Positions 1,793-13,388 of a stretch of DNA of 32,221 nt are shown in pieces. Every line of letters starts with the position of its first letter. Position 1 is the first letter of the stretch. Under the pieces are notes generated by a model. That model was not told the DNA's origin and did not search any database. It saw only the letters and a program-made list of their open reading frames with translations. The DNA is from Aurantimicrobium sp. (GTDB taxonomy: Bacteria > Actinomycetota > Actinomycetes > Actinomycetales > Microbacteriaceae), in the NCBI GenBank assembly GCA_024644865.1, contig JAHEGZ010000007.1:83677-115897 (forward strand), read 5' to 3'. A program made the position numbers and the translations under genes.

Positions 1793-3031
1793 GTGACAAC
1801 TTCGTCTACGCAGCCAGGGGCTCCGGCTCAGCTGACTCGCGCCATGCTTTTCTGGCTCGGTTTCATCGGGATTTTGGGCCCCATGGCCATCGATCTCTAC
1901 CTGCCCGCGCTGCCGGCCATGGCCAAAGACTTTGGCACCAGTGCAGCCACGGTTCAATTTGGACTGGCTACAACGACCATCGGCATGGCTATCGGCACGT
2001 TCGTCGTTGGTGCACTCTCTGACCGACTCGGACGCCGCCGCCCCCTGATCTTCACCGGGTTCCTCATGGTTGCCGGAGCGAGTCTGGCCTCGGCCTCGAC
2101 CGGCGTTTATTGGTTCTTAGCGTGCTGTCTGATTATGGGCATCTCCGCCTCTGCCGTTCAGGTCTCCGGGCGAGGCGTTATTGCCGATCTCACCCGCGGC
2201 AACGACTCGACCCGCGCTTTTTCGTTCTTCAGCAGCATTGTCATGGTCGGCCCCATCTTTGGACCGGTGGGCGGCGTGCTGATTCTGTCGTTTGCCGGAT
2301 GGCGCGGAATCTTTGTTGCTCTGGCCGCGTTCGCGCTCGTCGGCACCATTGCAATCTGGTCATTCGTGCCCGAGTCACTCGCGCTCGATAAGCGACACAC
2401 TGATGGCTTGGGCACAACGCTGAGGTCGATGTGGGCAATGTGGAGCAATCGAGTTTTCACCTGGTACGCGCTGGTCAACTTCACCTCGTACGCACTGATG
2501 TTTGTCTACCTGGGCACGTGCTCTCTGACCATTCAGGTTGAACTGGGTGCACCACCCTGGGTTGCGGCGCTCGCGTTTGCCGTCAACGGTGCTGGAATCG
2601 TCTTCGCCGGAATATTTGCGGCTTGGTTGGCCAAGTACTGGAGCAGTGTCGCCATCGTGTTCCTGAGCATTGCGGGTCAGGTCGCAGGCATCCTGTTCTT
2701 GACCTTCACCGTCGCAACCGGATCACTCAACATCGTCAGCATCTTTGTCATCTACTTGGTGATTTGCTTCAGCCTTGCCATCAGTTTTGGCGCCGTGACT
2801 TCCTTGGCACTGACGCATGTTCGCAATCAGTCAGGAACAGCCCTGGGGCTGCTCGGCTTGGTGCAGTTCATCATTGCGGCAGCAACCTCTGTGTTTGTGG
2901 GCACCATAAATCCGAGCCCGGCTATGTCGATGCTCATCGTTGGCGGAACGATTGTGGCAATCGCGGTCATTACGGCCCTTGGCGGTCAGCGCGCCCTCAA
3001 GCGAGATCCTGACCTCGAGCCGGCGCACTAG
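1793..3031 (+). CDS. MFS transporter, Bcr/CflA-like (412 aa)
   Basis: The protein is strongly hydrophobic with about 12 predicted membrane segments. The first loop has the drug/H+ antiporter pattern GALSDRLGRRRPLI after helix 2, and helix 1 contains GPMAIDLYLPALPAMA, which is characteristic of the Bcr/CflA group. Length is normal for that group. Known members export drugs or sulfur compounds by proton antiport; in this setting it could import or export a pathway compound, which is inference. It starts with GTG one base after the DUF2218 stop. Its TAG overlaps the TAG of the opposing aldehyde dehydrogenase in a shared CTAG, and no terminator hairpin separates the two. Confidence 0.88.
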   Translation: MTTSSTQPGAPAQLTRAMLFWLGFIGILGPMAIDLYLPALPAMAKDFGTSAATVQFGLATTTIGMAIGTFVVGALSDRLGRRRPLIFTGFLMVAGASLASASTGVYWFLACCLIMGISASAVQVSGRGVIADLTRGNDSTRAFSFFSSIVMVGPIFGPVGGVLILSFAGWRGIFVALAAFALVGTIAIWSFVPESLALDKRHTDGLGTTLRSMWAMWSNRVFTWYALVNFTSYALMFVYLGTCSLTIQVELGAPPWVAALAFAVNGAGIVFAGIFAAWLAKYWSSVAIVFLSIAGQVAGILFLTFTVATGSLNIVSIFVIYLVICFSLAISFGAVTSLALTHVRNQSGTALGLLGLVQFIIAAATSVFVGTINPSPAMSMLIVGGTIVAIAVITALGGQRALKRDPDLEPAH

Positions 3032-4485
3032 ACGGTGCGGTGGATGGATTTCAGCTTGGTGTAGGCGCTGATTCCCTCGGGGCCGTACTCAGTTCCAATG
3101 CCAGAGTCTTTCCAGCCGCCAAAGGGCGCAGCCTGGTTGTTCTGAAAGAAGTTGATGCCCGTCGAACCGCTCTCGATGCGACGAGCCAACGCCTCGGCAC
3201 GATCGACATCCTTCGTGTAGATGGTGCCGCCTAGACCGTACTGGGAGTCGTTTGCAATCGCGACGGCGTCATCCTCGTTCTTGTAAGGAATGACCACGAG
3301 CACCGGACCAAAAATCTCTTCTTGCGCCACGCGCATCTTGTTATTCACGTTGGCAAACACCGTCGGCTTTGAGAAGTAACCGCGGTCAAGCCCCTCGGGG
3401 CGACCTGAACCACCCGTGGCAACGCTCGCGCCTTCATCTTGACCGATGCGAATGTAGTCGGTGACGGTGCCGAACTGCTTCTTGGACGCCGATGGGCCAT
3501 AGACCGTGCTCGGGTCGAAGGGGTCACCCTGCTTAGCATCGCGCACGGCGGAGGCCACGGCCTCGACGACCTCGTCATAGCGAGATTCCGGGGCAAGGAT
3601 GCGCGTCGAGTTGTAACAGGTCTGTCCCGTGTTACGCAGGCAGGTCTTGTTGATCATCGAGTTGAAGTGGCTCAGGTCAGCGTCTTCGAGCACAATGCTT
3701 GCCGACTTACCACCGAGCTCAAGCGTCACAGGCTTGAGCAAGCGACCGCACTGCTCCGCCAGAAAGCGACCCACCTCGGTCGAACCGGTGAAGGCGACCT
3801 TGGCGACATCGGGGTGCTCGACCAAAGCACCCACGCTGTGGCGCGTGCACGTCACGAGGTTGATCACACCGGCCGGAAGGCCGGCCGCAACAGCAGCCTC
3901 CATGAGGACACGAAGGTCGAGCGGGGTCTCTGATGCCGGTTTGATGACGACCGTGCATCCGGCGATAAGCGCAGGTGCGAGCTTGATCATGACCAGAGCG
4001 ACGGGATAGTTCCACGGCGCGATCAGAGCGGCAACACCTCGCGGCATGCGCAGCACCTGCGAGTATTGCTTCGGGTTGCCCGGGTAGGGCCGCTTATCGT
4101 CTTTGTCGACAAAATCGGCCAGTGAGGCGTAGTACCTCAGCAGACCAGCACCGTGTTTTGCGGCCTGGCTCGACTCCATGACGGGAGTACCGTTCTCGCT
4201 GGTGATGATTGCCGAAAGCTGCTCGGCGCGAGCCTCAAACTCGTCAGCCAAAAGATTGATGTACTCAGCCCGAGCGGCCGCCCCGATGTCACTCCAGCCC
4301 TTACCCCGGAAAGCAGCACTTGCGGCAGCGACGGCGCGGTTGATGTCTTCTTCGTCGGCCGCCGGAACACGCGCCCACAGTTCTTCGGTTGCCGGGTCGG
4401 TCACGTCAATGTAGGCACCCGAGTGAGACTTCACCCATTCGCCCCCAATGAAAAGGTCATCGGTGTACATCTCAAGTGCAGTCAT
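3028..4485 (-). CDS. aldehyde dehydrogenase (485 aa)
   Basis: This is an NAD(P)-dependent aldehyde dehydrogenase of standard length. Asn159 lies in APWNYP, the cofactor-loop motif FTGSTEVGR is at 232-240, the general base Glu256 is in LELGGK, and the nucleophile Cys290 is in NTGQTCYNSTR. The family oxidises an aldehyde to the acid through a thioester on that Cys. It is the last gene of the minus-strand catabolic string, 52 bases after the second HD gene, and plausibly carries out the final oxidation after P450 hydroxylation and SDR oxidation. The ATG at 4485 has only a weak ribosome binding site. The substrate is unknown. Confidence 0.93.
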   Translation of the reverse strand: MTALEMYTDDLFIGGEWVKSHSGAYIDVTDPATEELWARVPAADEEDINRAVAAASAAFRGKGWSDIGAAARAEYINLLADEFEARAEQLSAIITSENGTPVMESSQAAKHGAGLLRYYASLADFVDKDDKRPYPGNPKQYSQVLRMPRGVAALIAPWNYPVALVMIKLAPALIAGCTVVIKPASETPLDLRVLMEAAVAAGLPAGVINLVTCTRHSVGALVEHPDVAKVAFTGSTEVGRFLAEQCGRLLKPVTLELGGKSASIVLEDADLSHFNSMINKTCLRNTGQTCYNSTRILAPESRYDEVVEAVASAVRDAKQGDPFDPSTVYGPSASKKQFGTVTDYIRIGQDEGASVATGGSGRPEGLDRGYFSKPTVFANVNNKMRVAQEEIFGPVLVVIPYKNEDDAVAIANDSQYGLGGTIYTKDVDRAEALARRIESGSTGINFFQNNQAAPFGGWKDSGIGTEYGPEGISAYTKLKSIHRTV

Positions 4486-4537: not shown

Positions 4538-5191
4538 TTACAGAATGTCGAGACGCAGAATGCGCATCGACTGGTTCAGCTCTGCCTCGGCCATAGCTTT
4601 TCCGGCAGGTGTGATCATCTCACCCATGACACGACCGGTCAGGTCACCCAATACCCACTGCGGAGTTCGGCCAAACCACTCGGCAGAAAATCCGAGCCCG
4701 GTCGGGTGGAAACGCCACAAGCGGTCGGCGTCGCGCACAATCGAGTCTTCGATCGAGTAGCTCACCGGGCGAGTGTCGTGGCCGTCAATGATGTCGGTGA
4801 CTTTCTTGATGAATTCATCGTCAAAACCGCATCCGGGCAAAATTTCGCGTGCGATGTCGCATCCGAATATTTCGTGCTGAACGCGAATGTCGCTCGTCAA
4901 GAAGTTGTCGCTGCGAAAGCCCTCTTCGAGAATCTTTGACTCATCGACGCGAGACCATCCCACGTCGTGCAGCATGGCAGCCACACGAGTGACCAGCTCA
5001 TCGGCCTCCGGAATGGTGTCGAGAATCAATTCCGCGTAAAGCAGTGTCATCGGTAGGTGCACGTCGTTCATGCGCGTGCGCATGAACGGCTCAGCCGCTA
5101 ACCAGACGTGGTCGACGTTGGTGTACTCGCGAACTGGCAGTGCGCCGTTTCCGAGTGTGCGGGTGTTCTCCATTGTGTGAGTGAAATCCAC
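4538..5191 (-). CDS. HD-domain metalloenzyme, paralog 1 (217 aa)
   Basis: This HD-superfamily protein has metal-ligand candidates H45, H75-D76 (LHDVGW), H106, H138 (DGHD) and D154 or D156 (RDADRLW). The set H...HD...H...H...D is the pattern known for two-metal HD proteins, including di-iron oxygenases of the PhnZ/MIOX type and some phosphohydrolases. The single-metal HD pattern lacks the two middle His. Ligand spacings match the second HD protein at 7516-8247 exactly (30, 31, 32 and 16 residues), so the two are paralogs. GTG at 5191 is preceded by AGGAGA about 5 bases upstream; an in-frame ATG six codons later is possible. It follows the ferredoxin reductase by 8 bases. Its activity could be hydrolysis of a phosphoester or oxygenation. 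Confidence 0.85.
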   Translation of the reverse strand: MDFTHTMENTRTLGNGALPVREYTNVDHVWLAAEPFMRTRMNDVHLPMTLLYAELILDTIPEADELVTRVAAMLHDVGWSRVDESKILEEGFRSDNFLTSDIRVQHEIFGCDIAREILPGCGFDDEFIKKVTDIIDGHDTRPVSYSIEDSIVRDADRLWRFHPTGLGFSAEWFGRTPQWVLGDLTGRVMGEMITPAGKAMAEAELNQSMRILRLDIL

Positions 5192-5199
5192 GGGGTCTC

Positions 5200-6435
5200 C
5201 TAGTCCTGAACCATGTCTTTGAGCTTCACCGAGGTGTCGCTCGCTGTGTCTGAGGGGATAGTCTGCCCGGCGCCGAGCGCCTTGCGCACGGCCATGTAGT
5301 CAAGCACCTCGTTGACCGAATCAATCGCGATCAGTCGCCCGTCGCGATAGTAAATCACCGAGAACTTCTCTTCGTCGGGGTTTCCTCGCAGAACCGTTTC
5401 GTCGTATCCGGTTGAAATTCCGGCCATCTGCAGCTTCATGGTGTCTTGGTCCGACCAGAACCACGGCACGGCCTTGTACTCGTGGTCAACGCCCATGAGC
5501 GTGCTGGCAGCAACCTTTGCTTGGTCAACCGCGTTCTGCACTGACTCGAGAGCAACCTGGCCCTCGCCGGTTAGCGGGTGCGGCATCACAACGGCGTCAC
5601 CGGCAGCCACAATGCGGGCATTCGAGGTGCGGGCGAACTCATCGACGACGATGGAATCGTTCTTGAGCTCGAGCCCGAGTTTTGCAGCGAGGTCGCCACG
5701 GGGAATCACGCCAATACCAATCATCACGATGTCGGCCGGGATGACCGTTCCATCGGCCAGTTCGACACCGGTGACTTTGCCGCCGCCGCCGACAAAGCGT
5801 GAGACCTGAGTGTTGAGCAACACGGTGGTTCCCCGGCGCTCGTGTGCTTCCTTGAAGAACTTGCTCGTAGTCGGGCTGACCACGCGCGACATGAGTCGCT
5901 CACTTCGATGAACAATGGTGGTCGTCTTACCGTTCTTTCGGGCTACGGCAGCGACCTCGAGTCCGATGAATCCTCCACCGATGACAACGACGTTGGCGGC
6001 AGCATCCCAACGGCTCTTGAGTGCCTTGGCGTCGGCAAGTCCGCGCAGGTAGAGCACGCCATCGAGGTCAACTCCCTCAACGTCCATGGGTCTTGCATCA
6101 GCGCCCGTTGTCAGTGCGAGCTTGTCAAAGGCAACCTCGCGGCCGGTGTTGGTGATTGCGGTTCCGTGAGCGGCATCCCAACGAACATCCACGACTCGTT
6201 CGTCGGTGATAACGACAATGTTGTTCTCGACATAAAAAGCTGGTGAGCGCAGTTCGAGCGACTCTTCGTCAGACTCCCCCGCCAGAAACGCCTTCGACAA
6301 CGGTGGACGCTGGTAGGGACCGTGGGCCTCCTCACCAATCATGGTGATGGTGCCGTCAAACTCGGCGTCCCGCAGCGAGACTGCAATCTGCATGCCGGCT
6401 TGCCCTGCACCGACAATCAGGATGCGCTCGCCCAC
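5200..6435 (-). CDS. NAD(P)H-dependent ferredoxin reductase, FAD-binding (411 aa)
   Basis: This is a two-dinucleotide-domain flavoprotein like putidaredoxin reductase. The FAD motif GAGQAG is at residues 9-14, YQRPPLSK at about 41-48, the second nucleotide motif GGGFIG at 153-158, and AAGDAV near 295 is the C-terminal FAD contact. Length is typical. It would pass electrons from NAD(P)H to the adjacent [2Fe-2S] ferredoxin and on to the P450 encoded upstream. The start is GTG at 6435, two bases after the ferredoxin stop, and there is no in-frame alternative before the FAD motif, so translational coupling is likely. Confidence 0.93.
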   Translation of the reverse strand: MGERILIVGAGQAGMQIAVSLRDAEFDGTITMIGEEAHGPYQRPPLSKAFLAGESDEESLELRSPAFYVENNIVVITDERVVDVRWDAAHGTAITNTGREVAFDKLALTTGADARPMDVEGVDLDGVLYLRGLADAKALKSRWDAAANVVVIGGGFIGLEVAAVARKNGKTTTIVHRSERLMSRVVSPTTSKFFKEAHERRGTTVLLNTQVSRFVGGGGKVTGVELADGTVIPADIVMIGIGVIPRGDLAAKLGLELKNDSIVVDEFARTSNARIVAAGDAVVMPHPLTGEGQVALESVQNAVDQAKVAASTLMGVDHEYKAVPWFWSDQDTMKLQMAGISTGYDETVLRGNPDEEKFSVIYYRDGRLIAIDSVNEVLDYMAVRKALGAGQTIPSDTASDTSVKLKDMVQD

Positions 6436-6437
6436 GA

Positions 6438-6761
6438 TTAGACCTGTTCTGAAGCGATTCGAACGCGAAGACCGTCGAGGTCAGCGTTCATCTTGATCTG
6501 ACAGGACAAGCGGCTGCAGGCGTTGCGCTCTTCAGCCGAACCGTCGAGCATGTCGTCTTCGAGGGGTCCAGGCTCGCCGACCTTACCCATGAATGCCTCG
6601 TCCACAAATACGTGACAGGTGGCGCAAGCGCAGGCTCCACCACACTCGGCGATGATTCCCTTGACTCCGTTGCGAACCGCAGTCTCCATGACAGAGTCGC
6701 CATCGCGAGCTTCAATGGTGACCTCTTTGCCGTCGGGCTGAATGTAAGTAACGTTAGGCAT
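6438..6761 (-). CDS. [2Fe-2S] ferredoxin, adrenodoxin/putidaredoxin type (107 aa)
   Basis: Cluster ligands fit the CX5CX2C...C pattern: C40, C46 and C49 within ECGGACACATC, and C87 in RLSCQI. An extra Cys at 44 is common in this group. The N-terminal PNVTYIQPDGKEVTIE strands and the acidic segment around 63-78 (EPGPLEDDMLDG) match vertebrate-type ferredoxins that dock on P450s. The start ATG at 6761 has AAGGAA 7 bases upstream. The gene sits directly before its reductase and in the same string as the P450, so the three form a complete class I electron-transfer system. Confidence 0.95.
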   Translation of the reverse strand: MPNVTYIQPDGKEVTIEARDGDSVMETAVRNGVKGIIAECGGACACATCHVFVDEAFMGKVGEPGPLEDDMLDGSAEERNACSRLSCQIKMNADLDGLRVRIASEQV

Positions 6762-6785
6762 TTTCTATTCCTTGTTTGGTGTGAA

Positions 6786-7538
6786 CTAAATGAATTGCTT
6801 GCCACCGTCGACGATGAGCGTCTGACCGGTGATGTACGAAGCGTCGTCGCTTGCCAAGAACAGGGCGGTGCCCACCATGTCGTCGGGCGTGCTTGCACGC
6901 TTGATGGCGCGGCTAGAAACACCGTAGCTGGCTGCGTCATCCATGATGCTCAGGCTCGCTTCGGTGAGCGTGAAACCCGGAGCAATTGCGTTGACGGTGA
7001 TGTTTTTCACGCCCGCCTCACGGGCCATCACACGAGTCATGCCAATGACGGCACCCTTGGATGCGACATAGTGCATCCACAATGGCGACCCACTGAATAC
7101 GGTGGCGGAAGCGATGTTGATGATCGAGCCACCGTCGCTCATGCGCGTGTAAGCAGCGCCCGAGGCAAGCCAAGCGCCCTTGACATTGACGGCCATGACC
7201 TTGTCCCACTCGTTGGGGTCAATCTCCCAGAAGTTGGCGCGCTCGATGGTCGCGTAGATGGCGGCGTTGTTGACTAAAACGTCGAGTGATCCAAAAGTCT
7301 TTATGGCGGCGTCAGCGACAGCCTCACAGGATGCCTTGTCGGTCACGTTTGTCTGCACTGCGATGGCCTTGCCACCGGCGGCTTCAATGAGCGAAACCGT
7401 CTCGGCAGAGCCGGCCTCGTTCATGTCGGCAACCACGACGTTTGCACCGCGCTGCGCGAATCCCAACGCAAAAGCACGACCGAGACCGCCAGCGGCACCG
7501 GTGATGATGACCGTCTTACCACTGAGTTGTTGTGACAT
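6786..7538 (-). CDS. SDR-family NAD(P)-dependent oxidoreductase (250 aa)
   Basis: This classical SDR has TGAAGGLG at residues 13-20, NNAA at 90-93, and the catalytic residues Ser144, Tyr157 and Lys161 (YVASK). The C-terminus has LIVDGG. It probably oxidises the alcohol formed by the P450 or another hydroxyl in the pathway, feeding the downstream aldehyde dehydrogenase. Its first 23 bases overlap the end of the upstream HD gene, which argues for coupled translation. It differs clearly from the plus-strand SDR at 240-1040, so the two probably act on different intermediates. Confidence 0.93.
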   Translation of the reverse strand: MSQQLSGKTVIITGAAGGLGRAFALGFAQRGANVVVADMNEAGSAETVSLIEAAGGKAIAVQTNVTDKASCEAVADAAIKTFGSLDVLVNNAAIYATIERANFWEIDPNEWDKVMAVNVKGAWLASGAAYTRMSDGGSIINIASATVFSGSPLWMHYVASKGAVIGMTRVMAREAGVKNITVNAIAPGFTLTEASLSIMDDAASYGVSSRAIKRASTPDDMVGTALFLASDDASYITGQTLIVDGGKQFI

Positions 7539-8247
7539 TTGCGCGTCCTCTTTCTTGCATGTCGTCCATTTGCTGGCTCAAGTCCATAGATTCAATTGCC
7601 ATAATCGCGAGCGACATGGTCTTTGCTTGCTCGGTAAACAAAACCTTTTCGTAGGCGCGTATGCCGTTAATGCGCAGCGACTCCTCGCGGGTCAGCCCGA
7701 AGCGAGGCATTGCCACGTCAATGCCATGGGGCGTGATGCGCCAGAGCTTGTCTGCGTCTTTGACCAATGAGTCGTTCAGGCTCGTGCTGGTCAGGCGAGT
7801 GTCATGACCATCGATGATGGCGCAAATCTCGTCAATGTCATCGGGTGCGTAATCGATCTGCTCGAGAATCTCGCGAGCAATTCGTGCACCCTCTTTTTCG
7901 TGCTGGGTGATGGCCCAGTTGTACGTGCCGTCCCGCCCGGGAGCAATTGCCTGAAAGGCAATGTCTTCGTCAACCGTGGACCAGCCACTGTCGTGCATGA
8001 TGATGGCAGGCAACACGATGTGCTCATCCGCCTCGGGGATGAGACGGCACAGTTGCGCGGCCATGCTGAACGAATACAGCGAGTGCACATCGTTATCGCG
8101 GGTCTGCAGGTAGGGAGTTACCAACTCCCAGATACGCGCATCCCGCTCCCCCATCTTGACCAGACCGGGAACGTCATCCCACACAGGAATCTTGTCGGTG
8201 ACGTCTCGACCAAGGTGGTTGATCGGGGAACGGGATACGCGTTTCAT
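7516..8247 (-). CDS. HD-domain metalloenzyme, paralog 2 (243 aa)
   Basis: This HD-superfamily protein has ligand candidates H55, H85-D86 (MHDSGWS), H116 (TQHE), H148 (DGHDTR) and D164 or D166 (KDADKLWR). The spacings are the same as in the protein at 4538-5191, and blocks NDVH, IPEADE, REIL, DGHDTR and DAD-LWR are shared. Compared with that paralog it has an N-terminal extension of about 10 residues (RSPINHLGRD) and a longer C-terminus. It lies directly after the phosphotransferase subunit gene, so a phosphorylated intermediate could be its substrate; a di-iron oxygenase is the main alternative. The ATG at 8247 has no obvious ribosome binding site, so the start is less certain. Confidence 0.85.
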   Translation of the reverse strand: MKRVSRSPINHLGRDVTDKIPVWDDVPGLVKMGERDARIWELVTPYLQTRDNDVHSLYSFSMAAQLCRLIPEADEHIVLPAIIMHDSGWSTVDEDIAFQAIAPGRDGTYNWAITQHEKEGARIAREILEQIDYAPDDIDEICAIIDGHDTRLTSTSLNDSLVKDADKLWRITPHGIDVAMPRFGLTREESLRINGIRAYEKVLFTEQAKTMSLAIMAIESMDLSQQMDDMQERGRANVTTTQW

Positions 8248-8268: not shown

Positions 8269-10089
8269 TTACTTCGACAGAATCTCGACGGTGCCGTTCG
8301 TACCGTCAACACGAAGCAGCATGCCCGTCTTGATGGTCGTCGACGCCTTACCGGTACCGGTCACAGCCGGCAATCCGTACTCGCGGCAGACGATGGCAGC
8401 GTGCGACATCATGCCTCCGATGTCGGTCACGGTTGCCGAGATCTTGCCGAAGACCGGACCCCACGAGGGTGCGGTAACCGGGGCAACGAGGATCTCGCCC
8501 TGGATGAGTTCGCCGAGCTGGTCAGGGCTGGTGATAACACGAGCCTTACCCTCAACGACACCACCCGAAGCGGCCATACCCTTGAGTCCGTTCTTGAGAC
8601 CCGAGTCGGCACCAAGCCACTGCTGAACCTGGTCGGTCGTGATACCCCACAGCATGACGGTGAAGGGCTCGACGATCTCGGCCGGCGGCTCGTTGAACGC
8701 GGGCGCCGGGCGCTGCGTTGCGAGTGCGTTGATGATTTTGGTGCGACGTGCAACCTCGGTCGGCCAGTAGGTCGGTCCAATGGGCTCGGTGCCCACGGCC
8801 CACGCGTTGGCGTAGTCGAACATTGCCGGACGAACCTCATCGCGGCTCAGGTACAGGATGTCGTCAGCGTTGGCCCAGAAGCCCTGGTCAGCAAGAAGCT
8901 GTCCGAGCTGACGAACCTTGCGCCAGAACACACCCATGGTCCAGTGCTCGATGTAGAAGTTGTGGTCTTCCACGTAGGGGTAGACAACGCGAGCCAGGCC
9001 AAGCTTGCCCATGAAGGTTTCCTTGGCTTCGCCGTCGAGTGCGTCTGCATAACCCTCGGTGATGCGGTCGCGCTCAGCGATGAGCTCGTCCTTCGGACGG
9101 TGCAGGCGCTCGCCCTTGGCGGCACGTGCAACGTAGTCGGAGATGTATCCGACCGGAAGGTCGAGGTTGTCACGCCAGTAGACGTCGGTTCCATAGAAAC
9201 CGTTACCTACGGTGTAGTTGAACCACGGGTCCTGTGCCTTCTCGAACGCAGCGAGCCACTGCGCGCCGTTCGAGTGGCCCTCGACTGCGCCAAGAACCTT
9301 GGCTGCGTCGTCACCGGTGAACAGATCGGTCAGACCAAGCTTGACCGCGAGGTCAGCGAGGGTCTTGAGCTCGTCGTCCGGACGGAAGAGAACCGAGTCC
9401 ACACCCATAACCATCTTGGCGATGGCGAGGTCGGGGATGCCGGGGAAGGCCTCTTTACAGAACATGAACAGGTCGAGGTACGCGACGTAACCCAGGTTCA
9501 GGAACTCGAAGTGACGCTCCCAGTTCTTGTAGCACAGCGAGATGAGACGGTCGTAGTCGTCGAAGAGCTGAACCGAGGGGTCCATGCCCTTTCCACCCTT
9601 GATGTCCTCGATCGGAACCATGTCGGGCAGAGCGGTGAAGTTGATCGCGTCGATCTCGGCAATGTTCGAGAGAACATCCTTGCGCCAGTTCTCGAGCAGC
9701 TCAGTCCAGTTCTGGAAGTAGTGACCAGCGCGCTCCATGAAGTGAGGAACGCGGTCACCGATGAGCTCGGGAGCGACACCGACAGGGCTGAAGTAGTTGT
9801 AGCCCATGTGGATACGGAAGTCGATACCGTTTGCCGGAGGAATGATGTAGTGACGCGTGTTGTATGCACCGAGGCAGCGTGAAGCGAACTCCACACCGAT
9901 GACCTCAAATGGCTTGAACACGTTCGGCCAGTGCTGGCTGTCACAGAACCAGAACTTTGCTTCTTCCTGCTTCTTCAGGTTGTCCTGGAAGGTCAGGTAG
10001 TACGGATAGAGCTCCTGCCAGCCCTCAGCACCCTTGGGGGTTTTCATGCTGTAGGGCGAAGGGAAGCTTTTTGCGGCTTTAGGCGCCAT
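8269..10089 (-). CDS. Split dikinase-like phosphotransferase, substrate plus phospho-His subunit (606 aa)
   Basis: The C-terminal ~95 residues are the PEP-utilising mobile (swivelling) domain. The phosphohistidine motif TDIGGMMSHAAIV places the phospho-acceptor at H563, followed by GLPAVTGTG. Nothing follows it, so the PEP-binding TIM barrel of PEP synthase and PPDK is absent. The ~500 residues before it, including FWFCDSQHWP, YNTRHYIIPP, EDHNFYIEHW and ADDILYLSRDEV, resemble the substrate-binding part of the phenylphosphate synthase 70-kDa subunit and of rifampin phosphotransferase. With the ATP-grasp protein encoded just upstream, it should transfer the beta-phosphate of ATP through His to a hydroxyl compound, giving a phosphoester, AMP and Pi. 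The acceptor is unknown. The ATG at 10089 has GAAAGG about 9 bases upstream. Confidence 0.82.
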   Translation of the reverse strand: MAPKAAKSFPSPYSMKTPKGAEGWQELYPYYLTFQDNLKKQEEAKFWFCDSQHWPNVFKPFEVIGVEFASRCLGAYNTRHYIIPPANGIDFRIHMGYNYFSPVGVAPELIGDRVPHFMERAGHYFQNWTELLENWRKDVLSNIAEIDAINFTALPDMVPIEDIKGGKGMDPSVQLFDDYDRLISLCYKNWERHFEFLNLGYVAYLDLFMFCKEAFPGIPDLAIAKMVMGVDSVLFRPDDELKTLADLAVKLGLTDLFTGDDAAKVLGAVEGHSNGAQWLAAFEKAQDPWFNYTVGNGFYGTDVYWRDNLDLPVGYISDYVARAAKGERLHRPKDELIAERDRITEGYADALDGEAKETFMGKLGLARVVYPYVEDHNFYIEHWTMGVFWRKVRQLGQLLADQGFWANADDILYLSRDEVRPAMFDYANAWAVGTEPIGPTYWPTEVARRTKIINALATQRPAPAFNEPPAEIVEPFTVMLWGITTDQVQQWLGADSGLKNGLKGMAASGGVVEGKARVITSPDQLGELIQGEILVAPVTAPSWGPVFGKISATVTDIGGMMSHAAIVCREYGLPAVTGTGKASTTIKTGMLLRVDGTNGTVEILSK

Positions 10090-10145: not shown

Positions 10146-11213
10146 TTAGCTACGGTTCATGGAAGCGAGCATCGACTTAGTGATGGCTTCGATTCCGGAA
10201 CCAGCGGAGGCAATCTTTGTCTCCACCTTTTTCTGCGACCAAACCGTCTCGGGACGGCTCTGCAGCAGAAGTACATTCTGACCTTCGGGAAGGTCGGCGT
10301 CGATGGCCCACTCGACGTCTTGAACTGTGCCGTAGTGCTTCTCGGCAGCCTTGGCCAGCTTGGCCACAGCCATGATCTCGTCCTCGCTCAGGCTCGACGA
10401 GCTACGTCGGGGTTCTTCGACCTCCTGGCGCGCGATGGACCCGTGTCCGGTGGGAACGAGCTCCTCGTGCTTGTCGGAGATGATTCGGTTAACAACCGAC
10501 ATCATGATCTTGTCGAGAACGAAGTTGTCAGGGGTGACCTCACCCGAGACCACCATCTCGCCCAGTCCCCAACTGGAGTCGATGACAATCTTGGTGCGGT
10601 CACCATTGGCCGGGTCGATGGTCATAGCCACGCCCGAAGAGCGAGAGTTGACCATCTTCTGAACGGCGACCGCAATCGAAAGACCTTCGTCGGCGATGTT
10701 GTTCGCCAATCGATACGTGATGGCACGGGCGGTGTACAGGGATGCCCAGCACTCACGAATCTTCTGCAGAACGTGCTGCTCACCAATGATCCACAGGTAG
10801 GTGTCCTGCTGACCGGCGAAGCTTGCGTCAGGAAGGTCTTCAGCAGTTGCGCTCGAGCGCACCGCAACAGGAACTTCGCCGCCACACAGCTCCATGAGCT
10901 TTGCGTACGCGGTGTGCACCTCGGCATAAACCTCTTCAGGAACCGGTTGCGTGAGGATCAGTTCACGAATCTGAGCCGAACGGTGGTCAAGGTCGGCCAC
11001 GTTGTCGGGGTCAAGCCCGGCAAGAATCTCTTTGATGTGCGCTTGCAGCTTGGGGTCGTTCACCACAGCGTCGTACGACTCAGTGGTGACGGCAAACCCG
11101 GGAGGAACCGGCATACCGGCACCGGTCATGATGGCCAGGCTGGTGCATTTTCCACCGAGACGGTCGTGCTCAGGCTTCTCGGCGCTGTCGAACGGGAAGG
11201 TATAAAGCGACAT
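10146..11213 (-). CDS. Split dikinase-like phosphotransferase, ATP-grasp subunit (355 aa)
   Basis: This is a stand-alone PEP-synthase N-terminal (ATP-binding) domain. It has the Lys region LGGKCTSL at about 19-26, GMPVPPGFAVT at 33-43, the signature AVRSSATAEDLPDASFAGQQ at 117-136, DVEWAID near 299-305, and LLLQSRPETV at 315-324. The His and PEP domains are missing; the His domain is on the adjacent gene. The sizes 355 + 606 aa match the 40-kDa and 70-kDa subunits of phenylphosphate synthase. It would bind ATP and phosphorylate H563 of the partner. The ATG at 11213 is preceded by AAAGGAA. It lies between the P450 and the partner subunit in the operon. Confidence 0.87.
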   Translation of the reverse strand: MSLYTFPFDSAEKPEHDRLGGKCTSLAIMTGAGMPVPPGFAVTTESYDAVVNDPKLQAHIKEILAGLDPDNVADLDHRSAQIRELILTQPVPEEVYAEVHTAYAKLMELCGGEVPVAVRSSATAEDLPDASFAGQQDTYLWIIGEQHVLQKIRECWASLYTARAITYRLANNIADEGLSIAVAVQKMVNSRSSGVAMTIDPANGDRTKIVIDSSWGLGEMVVSGEVTPDNFVLDKIMMSVVNRIISDKHEELVPTGHGSIARQEVEEPRRSSSSLSEDEIMAVAKLAKAAEKHYGTVQDVEWAIDADLPEGQNVLLLQSRPETVWSQKKVETKIASAGSGIEAITKSMLASMNRS

Positions 11214-12591: not shown

Positions 12592-12609
12592 CTAGGTGTT
12601 TTGACCTAG
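12592..12609 (-). terminator. Short inverted repeat over the IclR stop codon, possible weak terminator
   Basis: CTAGGT (12592-12597) and ACCTAG (12604-12609) are perfect inverted arms around a 6-base loop, and the iclR TAG lies in one arm. On the minus strand the hairpin is followed by ATTTGCTTTCTC, which is T-rich but not a clean U-tract. It could reduce read-through from iclR into the P450 operon or be part of the operator region. Confidence 0.35.
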
Positions 12610-13388
12610 CTGCCGATGCGCGTGGGGGTGCCCACCATGGCGGCCTCGATGCGCTCAATAGTTCCGCGCAACAGCGGCATGAGGCGCTGCACCTCGCGGT
12701 ACCTGAAAACTTCGAAAACAAGGCCGACCGAGGCAACCACCTGGCCGTTGTAGTGCACGGGAAGGGCCATCGACAGAACACCCATGCGCATCTGCTCCTG
12801 AGTAACGCAGTAGCCGTCGCGACGAACGTCTTCGATGATCTGGCGCAGAATCTTGGGGTCGGTCACCGTTTTGGGCGTGGGTGCCTCGAGCTCGCGTTGC
12901 AGGTAGGCATCGACGAACCAGTCGGGCTGGTCGGCGAGCAGAATGCGCCCCACAGCGGTGGCGTGCATCGGCAGGCGACCACCGATGCGCGAAACCACGG
13001 GCATCTTGCGCGAGCCATAAACCTTGTCGACGTAGAGGGTCTGCATGCCGTCACGAATAGCCATGTGAACGTTCTCGTGCGTCAGGTCAAACAGGTCTTG
13101 CAAGAAAGGATGCGCGCGGTCACGCAAGCGGCGCCCGGCAAGCTGCCCGAGCTCCCAGATGCGGAATCCGATTCCATACTTTCCATCTGAGCCGCGTCGA
13201 AGTCCGCCCCACTCCTCAAGCTCACGCACGAGTCGATACGTGGTCGACAGCGGAAGATGGGCGCGCTGCGCGATCTTTGCTACCGAGAGGGAGCCGGTGG
13301 AGTTTTCGAACGACGCGAGAATGGCAAGCGCGCGTGAGGTGACGCTGGCACCGGCCGATGCGTTCTCTTCTGCGTTGGATTTCGCCAT
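12606..13388 (-). CDS. IclR-family transcriptional regulator (260 aa)
   Basis: The N-terminal winged helix-turn-helix covers roughly residues 14-75: SRALAILASFENSTGSLSV, then IAQRAHLPLSTTYRLVRELE as the recognition region. The C-terminal effector domain shows IclR-type features: MPVVSRIGGRLPMHATAVGR near 130-150 and the final VLSMALPVHYNGQVVASVGL. Length is typical. IclR proteins bind dyad operators next to their own gene and answer to small aromatic, terpenoid or organic-acid ligands. It starts 6 bases after the mutM stop, so its transcription may come from the mutM operon. It probably controls the P450 string and, through a second operator, the oxidoreductase at 30394. Confidence 0.92.
   Translation of the reverse strand: MAKSNAEENASAGASVTSRALAILASFENSTGSLSVAKIAQRAHLPLSTTYRLVRELEEWGGLRRGSDGKYGIGFRIWELGQLAGRRLRDRAHPFLQDLFDLTHENVHMAIRDGMQTLYVDKVYGSRKMPVVSRIGGRLPMHATAVGRILLADQPDWFVDAYLQRELEAPTPKTVTDPKILRQIIEDVRRDGYCVTQEQMRMGVLSMALPVHYNGQVVASVGLVFEVFRYREVQRLMPLLRGTIERIEAAMVGTPTRIGS

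Follow-up and report, generated by a model that had tools for sequence, protein, structure and literature searches.

Two HD-domain proteins in a cre-type operon of Aurantimicrobium: a predicted CreD phosphohydrolase and an accessory paralog

The operon and its genes

The stretch of DNA analysed here (the window, 32,221 nucleotides) comes from Aurantimicrobium sp., a member of the Microbacteriaceae (assembly GCA_024644865.1, contig JAHEGZ010000007.1, positions 83,677 to 115,897), and it carries an operon with two genes for HD-domain proteins, which we call HD-B and HD-A (Table 1). The nine genes from creC to creJ are separated by gaps of -23 to 56 bases, and 103 bases lie before the gene for an IclR-type regulator, which is probably CreR. 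Sequence identity between the two HD proteins is 39% (residues 28-181 of HD-B), and the genes for a short-chain dehydrogenase, a ferredoxin and a ferredoxin reductase stand between them. The initial annotation of this DNA, made from the sequence without database searches, had described them as paralogs kept in one operon, and both the identity and the gene spacing bear this out. With HD-A left out, the gene order is creC-D-E-F-G-H-I-J, as in the 4-cresol cluster of Corynebacterium glutamicum. The operon is therefore of a known kind, that of the cre pathway, here in a two-HD variant; its identity is established by gene content and order, and the conservation of the metal ligands and the clade structure and distribution of the HD proteins are likewise direct observations.

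Table 1. Coordinates in the window of the operon genes and of the neighbouring regulator gene, with the features on which each assignment is based
Feature	Position	Strand	Basis and details
HD-B, CreD-type HD phosphohydrolase (predicted)	4538..5191	-	217 aa; PF01966; ligands H45, H75, D76, H106, H138, D154
HD-A, accessory paralog, second HD protein	7516..8247	-	243 aa; PF01966; ligands H55, H85, D86, H116, H148, D164
CreC-type aldehyde dehydrogenase	3028..4485	-	PF00171 and gene position
CreE-type ferredoxin reductase	5200..6435	-	PF07992 and PF14759
CreF-type 2Fe-2S ferredoxin	6438..6761	-	PF00111
CreG-type short-chain dehydrogenase	6786..7538	-	PF13561; gene start overlaps HD-A end by 23 bases
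CreH-type swivel/substrate subunit of aryl dikinase (PEP-utiliser-type)	8269..10089	-	PF00391; NF006150 above cut-off; motif TDIGGMMSH
CreI-type ATP-grasp subunit of aryl dikinase (PPDK_N-type)	10146..11213	-	PF01326
CreJ-type cytochrome P450	11258..12502	-	PF00067
IclR-type regulator	12606..13388	-	PF01614 and PF09339

The functions of the C. glutamicum genes are given in a published table (PMC7764795), which lists an aldehyde dehydrogenase (creC), a phosphohydrolase (creD), an alcohol dehydrogenase (creG), a class I P450 system (creE, creF and creJ) and the subunits of a 4-methylbenzyl phosphate synthase (creH and creI). HD-B lies at the place of creD, the one phosphohydrolase that this table names, whereas the HD gene between creG and creH is an addition of the window. 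CreHI phosphorylates 4-cresol, according to two papers (PMC12167813, PMC9618137), the first of which reports a Ser preceding the catalytic His for CreH and PpsA. The kinase of the window belongs to this type, being a two-gene, phosphoenolpyruvate-synthase-like enzyme with the motif T/SxxGGxxxH and a Ser before the His. Across 75 cre loci, 76 CreH stretches were compared and 75 have the same Ser; the exception, which lacks the motif, is the first part of a gene found split in two (locus L046).

A homologous two-component aryl dikinase also phosphorylates the phenol first in the Hpe pathway of Rhodococcus rhodochrous GD02 (PMC12167813, PMC9618137). As described in the second of these sources, that pathway differs: it relies on a carboxylase and on HpeD, a phosphatase for which NagD (24%) is listed as the characterised homologue, and not on HD proteins. 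A further dikinase swivel gene in the genome to which the window belongs is of HpeH type (SDIGGIMCH, L144 8521-10347, contig G000:C73) and is accompanied by carboxylase, HAD phosphatase and AMP-binding genes; the one CreI-like ATP-grasp match of this genome is the gene of the window. The two other sampled genomes of the genus (G735 and G802) show two H matches and one I match each. Two of each are found in the genomes G769 and G695. Since three genomes of the genus thus have two H genes and one I gene, the ATP-grasp subunit may be shared by both swivel genes; gaps in the draft assemblies are an alternative.

The six-ligand motif and the type of chemistry

Both proteins match the Pfam HD family PF01966 (36.9 and 36.0 bits for HD-B and HD-A, in this order, with a cut-off of 22). 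Both also keep the pattern H, HD, H, H, D with spacings of 30, 31, 32 and 16 residues, counted from ligand to ligand and with the HD pair counted at its H, exactly as the initial annotation had it. The six ligands are invariant in all alignment rows (41/41 for HD-A and 83/83 for HD-B), and in 134/134 proteins after ten more were added, so the motif is not due to chance. Across the family the first, third and fourth spacings are 30, 32 and 16, with a single exception in 124 rows, where the first is 34. The second ranges between 29 and 32 in the relatives, so that the exact equality of the window pair is partly incidental.

The meaning of the two extra His residues can be judged from passages of a review of the HD superfamily (PMC8177086), where a six-residue motif is said to diagnose the ability to hold two metals. 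There it is given to YqeK, a diiron phosphohydrolase of Ap4A, as well as to the oxygenase-type proteins MIOX, PhnZ and TmpB, and a similar motif with an extra His is given to polynuclear phosphodiesterases. Being common to YqeK and to MIOX, PhnZ and TmpB, the motif does not discriminate hydrolases from oxygenases and is no oxygenase mark. The residues are conserved in all 134 proteins and their pattern is of the dinuclear type, in agreement with the initial annotation, but the view that they point to PhnZ and MIOX is not supported. From the motif, a dinuclear site in HD-A and HD-B is plausible. YqeK differs from the pair in several respects: by the residue numbers of the review its spacings are 29/33/26/18, its substrate is different, and a search of NCBIfam with 38 members (17 families matched, E up to 1) gave no YqeK-named model. 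The YqeK entries 8wmy and 2o08 are among the Foldseek matches listed.

The initial annotation had also suggested that the pair could be oxygenases rather than phosphohydrolases, taken here to mean mixed-valent diiron enzymes of the PhnZ/MIOX kind, and had proposed a comparison of gating residues with the PhnZ clade. The six-ligand motif speaks for this idea as far as it is common to MIOX, PhnZ and TmpB, but YqeK has it too. The YxxE loop of PhnZ and TmpB, sought in up to 25 residues upstream of the first ligand His, was found in 0/41 HD-A and 0/83 HD-B sequences, i.e., in none of the 124 rows. MIOX is not one of the 16 families that 51 members matched in Pfam (E up to 1), and in NCBIfam (E up to 1) a PhnZ-type model matched a single member out of 38, at E 0.09, so that neither gives a family-model match above noise. 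Neither PhnZ nor MIOX appears among the structure matches listed, at most 50 per search, or among the PDB profile matches up to E 10, both being listings and no exclusion. The gene context is different as well, since the operon has an oxygenase of its own in the P450 and creD is annotated as a phosphohydrolase in the C. glutamicum table (PMC7764795). On the loop, the family models and the gene context together we rejected the oxygenase reading, which we now consider extremely improbable.

Predicted structures were compared with solved ones. The AlphaFold2 models are confident, with a predicted local distance difference test score (pLDDT) of 92.8 and a predicted template modelling score (pTM) of 0.90 for HD-A, and of 95.9 and 0.92 for HD-B. 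The best structural match of both is 2pq7, a predicted hydrolase, with Z 18.2 for HD-A and 16.9 for HD-B and a root-mean-square deviation (rmsd) of 3.0 over 165 and 3.2 over 163 residues in this order, and YpgQ (5dqw) is also matched (HD-A: Z 16.0, rmsd 3.6 over 169; HD-B: Z 16.0, rmsd 3.1 over 167). Profile searches of the PDB likewise placed 2pq7 first (E 2.2e-5 and 3.5e-5), and single-sequence searches were weak, with 2pq7 at E 0.051 for HD-B and nothing useful for HD-A. Among the matches listed, the nearest solved structures are thus mostly hydrolase-type HD proteins, and those of the YpgQ/2pq7/YedJ type are the closest both by fold and by PDB profile. They differ from the window pair by an identity of only about 20%, and in that YpgQ is listed in the review (PMC8177086) as mononuclear and acting on dNTPs, and 2pq7 is only a predicted hydrolase.

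HD-B at the position of creD and the expected chemistry

To place the two proteins among their relatives, we scanned 84,980 species, each represented by one genome, with an HD alignment of five rows. This gave 201 confirmed loci, of which the best 80, ranked by likeness to HD-B, were kept; with two Rhodococcus plasmids, this makes 82 loci, whose counts lean, owing to the ranking, to close relatives of HD-B and do not speak for the other 121. HD-B lies after the ferredoxin reductase gene in 82/82 of these loci, and the aldehyde dehydrogenase gene follows it in 80/82, the contig ending in the other two. HD-B of the window is found at this same position, between creE and creC. Three clusters with HD-B only (L173, L174 and L175) have the C. 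glutamicum gene order, and their HD proteins fall in clade B. By this position and these clusters we read HD-B as CreD.

In a tree of the 124 rows, HD-A and HD-B form separate clades with a support of 100 by a quick method, and the split was kept when ten more rows were added. HD-A was also considered as CreD and was rejected for its other gene positions and its separate clade. Several residues are invariant in both clades (Arg40, Asn42, Asp43, Asp156, Trp159 and Arg160, in HD-B numbering), and Arg141 is found in 119/124 rows. Two arginines separate the clades: Arg38 and Arg103 are present in 83/83 HD-B sequences, whereas Arg38 is found in only 12/41 HD-A sequences and position 103 is Val in 38/41, the HD-A of the window having Gln and Ile. 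From this difference we infer different substrate pockets for HD-A and HD-B.

The chemistry expected of the operon can be outlined from these assignments, taking the order of the cre steps as Du and co-workers are said to have described it in 2016. The substrate would be 4-cresol or a close 4-alkylphenol, degraded via phosphorylated intermediates. CreI and CreH would phosphorylate the phenol hydroxyl, the P450 CreJ, with CreF and CreE, would oxidise the methyl group of the aryl phosphate, and CreG and CreC would contribute to the remaining oxidation up to the carboxylate. The phosphate would then be removed by an HD phosphohydrolase, predicted to be HD-B, to release 4-hydroxybenzoate. HD-A, with the same six metal ligands and different pocket residues, would likewise be a phosphohydrolase, for a different aryl phosphate in the pathway, and both proteins would have a two-metal hydrolytic site rather than the mixed-valent diiron site of an oxygenase. 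As the operon already encodes an oxygenase (a P450 with its ferredoxin and reductase) and its kinase produces aryl phosphates, what the pathway needs is a phosphohydrolase.

The expected product has an outlet on the same contig, where 14 to 19 kb before the first base of the window (L112 631-5253, contig G000:C28) lie genes for a 4-hydroxybenzoate 3-monooxygenase (NF006091, 446.7 bits for a cut-off of 351, although under the cut-off of the stricter TIGR02360) and for the beta subunit of a class III extradiol dioxygenase (NF009903, 442.1 bits for a cut-off of 317), probably a protocatechuate 4,5-dioxygenase. A beta subunit of protocatechuate 3,4-dioxygenase was sought in the same genome and not found, the class III extradiol type being found instead. 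A different p-cresol route has been proposed for Rhodococcus opacus 1CP (PMC13101518), and the available portion of that paper makes no mention of creD, creH, HD domain, phosphohydrolase, phosphorylat- or kinase.

Distribution of the HD family and possible roles of HD-A

The HD family co-occurs with the kinase. Among 398 Microbacteriaceae genomes, the family was found in 28 (E up to 1e-8) and a CreH-like kinase in 30 (E up to 1e-60), and all 28 are among the 30 (Fisher p 5.6e-41, uncorrected for kinship). The kinases of the two kinase-only genomes (G965 and G968) are just 48% and 42% identical, and one genome (G829, assembly 87% complete) has an HD match with only a 47% kinase match. This confinement of the HD family to kinase-bearing genomes fits enzymes that act on the products of the kinase. 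A class-wide sample gave the family in 4/394 genomes, all four with a cre or cre-like cluster and one of them that of the window. In the family to which Williamsia belongs, 17 of 401 genomes have it: two matches were found in 10 of them and one in 6, and the last has a match in two pieces with stops. When 296 genomes of the phylum were searched with a single sequence, six weak matches elsewhere (E 1e-3 to 2.5e-6) were found besides the own genome, and scans of viral contigs gave no confirmed relative. In G1332 (L161, L172) the HD-family match lies in two neighbouring pieces with a stop in each frame and is apparently broken.

HD-A is less regular than HD-B. It was seen in 40/82 cre loci, in four kinds of position: between creH and creG (17), upstream and in line with the IclR gene (14), divergent upstream (6) and after creC (3). 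The set of eight genes is complete and the flanks are long enough in 58 loci, which divide into 30 with HD-A and 28 without. No HD-A was visible in 42 loci, and we traced 23 of these into whole genomes, with three HD-A loci as positive controls. A single family match was found in 20/23 and a second one elsewhere in the genome in 3/23, and the controls gave two each. HD-A is therefore not essential to the pathway in general. Conversely, a cre-type P450 module in G318 (L104 3941-16355) has HD-A and no HD-B, which together with the preceding result shows that HD-A is neither essential for cre nor dependent on HD-B. Beside this module lie biotin carboxylase-type genes and a kinase of HpeH type, which has Cys-His as HpeH does, and the hybrid cluster is possibly a route for longer 4-alkylphenols. 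Two Rhodococcus plasmids (L016 and L017) carry a cre cluster beside toluene monooxygenase-type genes, with HD-A on one only.

The finding of each paralog in genomes that have not the other also bears on an earlier suggestion, that HD-A and HD-B may form a heterodimer. Two or more members occur together in 22/28 of the Microbacteriaceae genomes having the HD family, as would be expected of partners, but an obligate pair is difficult to reconcile with the 20 genomes holding a single family match and with G318 holding HD-A only. We consequently rejected the obligate heterodimer, which appears very unlikely. The other option raised at the outset, namely that the two proteins act on two different intermediates, is possible.

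The neighbours of HD-A bring in a further alternative, in which HD-A would be mainly regulatory and would hydrolyse a phosphorylated inducer of the neighbouring IclR regulator, so that the operon is shut down or stray aryl phosphate is kept low. Where HD-A stands outside the operon, an IclR gene lies within 300 bases in 24/27 loci, or in 24/28 when L115, in which no window-like IclR was found, is included (a count that leaves aside the HD-A loci of the Microbacteriaceae and Williamsia-family surveys). In general, 67/70 loci that extend far enough have an IclR gene no more than 1 kb upstream of the P450 gene, and the only three without it are the three Sinomonas cre loci. In Sinomonas the HD-A/IclR pair stands apart, 131 kb (G680) and 65 kb (G683) from HD-B, and the cre loci L075 and L083 have no IclR gene by the P450. 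A regulatory HD-A would agree with this pairing and with a catabolic route that can do without it. Yet in the window and in 17 relatives HD-A lies inside the catabolic operon after creH, in Georgenia (3 loci) it lies after creC, and the adjacency to IclR may be inherited gene order. Overall we judge a mainly regulatory HD-A possible but unlikely. A more specific form, in which HD-A would be a phosphatase dedicated to clearing the aryl-phosphate signal of IclR for the control of the pathway, and CreD and HD-A would constitute a two-metal HD group acting on aryl monophosphates, seems slightly more doubtful still. For comparison, the HD monophosphatases YfbR and YGK1 are given as mononuclear in the consulted part of the review (PMC8177086).

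Taken as a whole, the evidence makes it probable that the window holds a cre-type operon in which HD-B is the CreD orthologue and HD-A a second aryl-phosphate phosphohydrolase, both being likely two-metal hydrolases. For HD-A taken by itself, a second aryl-phosphate phosphohydrolase is the most likely role as judged from its sequence relatives. The catalytic activity, the two metals and all substrates assigned to the pair are predictions of the same nature. Several points weigh against this interpretation. According to the same review, phosphohydrolases typically have a conserved Arg three residues before the first His; here that position is Asn in 124/124 rows and an invariant Arg lies five residues before in 124/124, so that this mark of phosphohydrolases is only approximately present. 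The seventh Foldseek match of HD-B is a lyase of the HD fold, the yeast cyanamide hydratase Ddi2 (E 2.3e-3), and many of the top structure entries are uncharacterised. YpgQ is listed in the review (PMC8177086) as mononuclear, which leaves the second metal of HD-A and HD-B not assured. The activity proposed for HD-A comes from homology, and 20/23 of the checked cre-bearing genomes do without it. Finally, the orthology of HD-B to CreD is based on gene position and on other genomes rather than on the C. glutamicum CreD sequence, and the C. glutamicum table covers indole-induced genes only and skips cg0643 (PMC7764795), and hence does not prove that there is a single HD gene in that organism.

We recognised no description of a second HD protein in a cre setting in the literature searched, the coverage of which is thin for subscription journals. 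HD-A is a conserved second HD protein that has apparently not been characterised; some cre genomes lack it, others have it in a different place and one cluster has it alone, which makes it a practical target. The analysis places a seemingly oxygenase-like pair in a known route, in which the phenol is phosphorylated before the P450 acts and which is of interest for lignin-derived and pollutant alkylphenols, and it shows that the six-ligand motif by itself should not be taken as an oxygenase mark. If it is true that CreD and HD-A bind two metals, the dinuclear HD class would be extended to aryl phosphomonoesterases.

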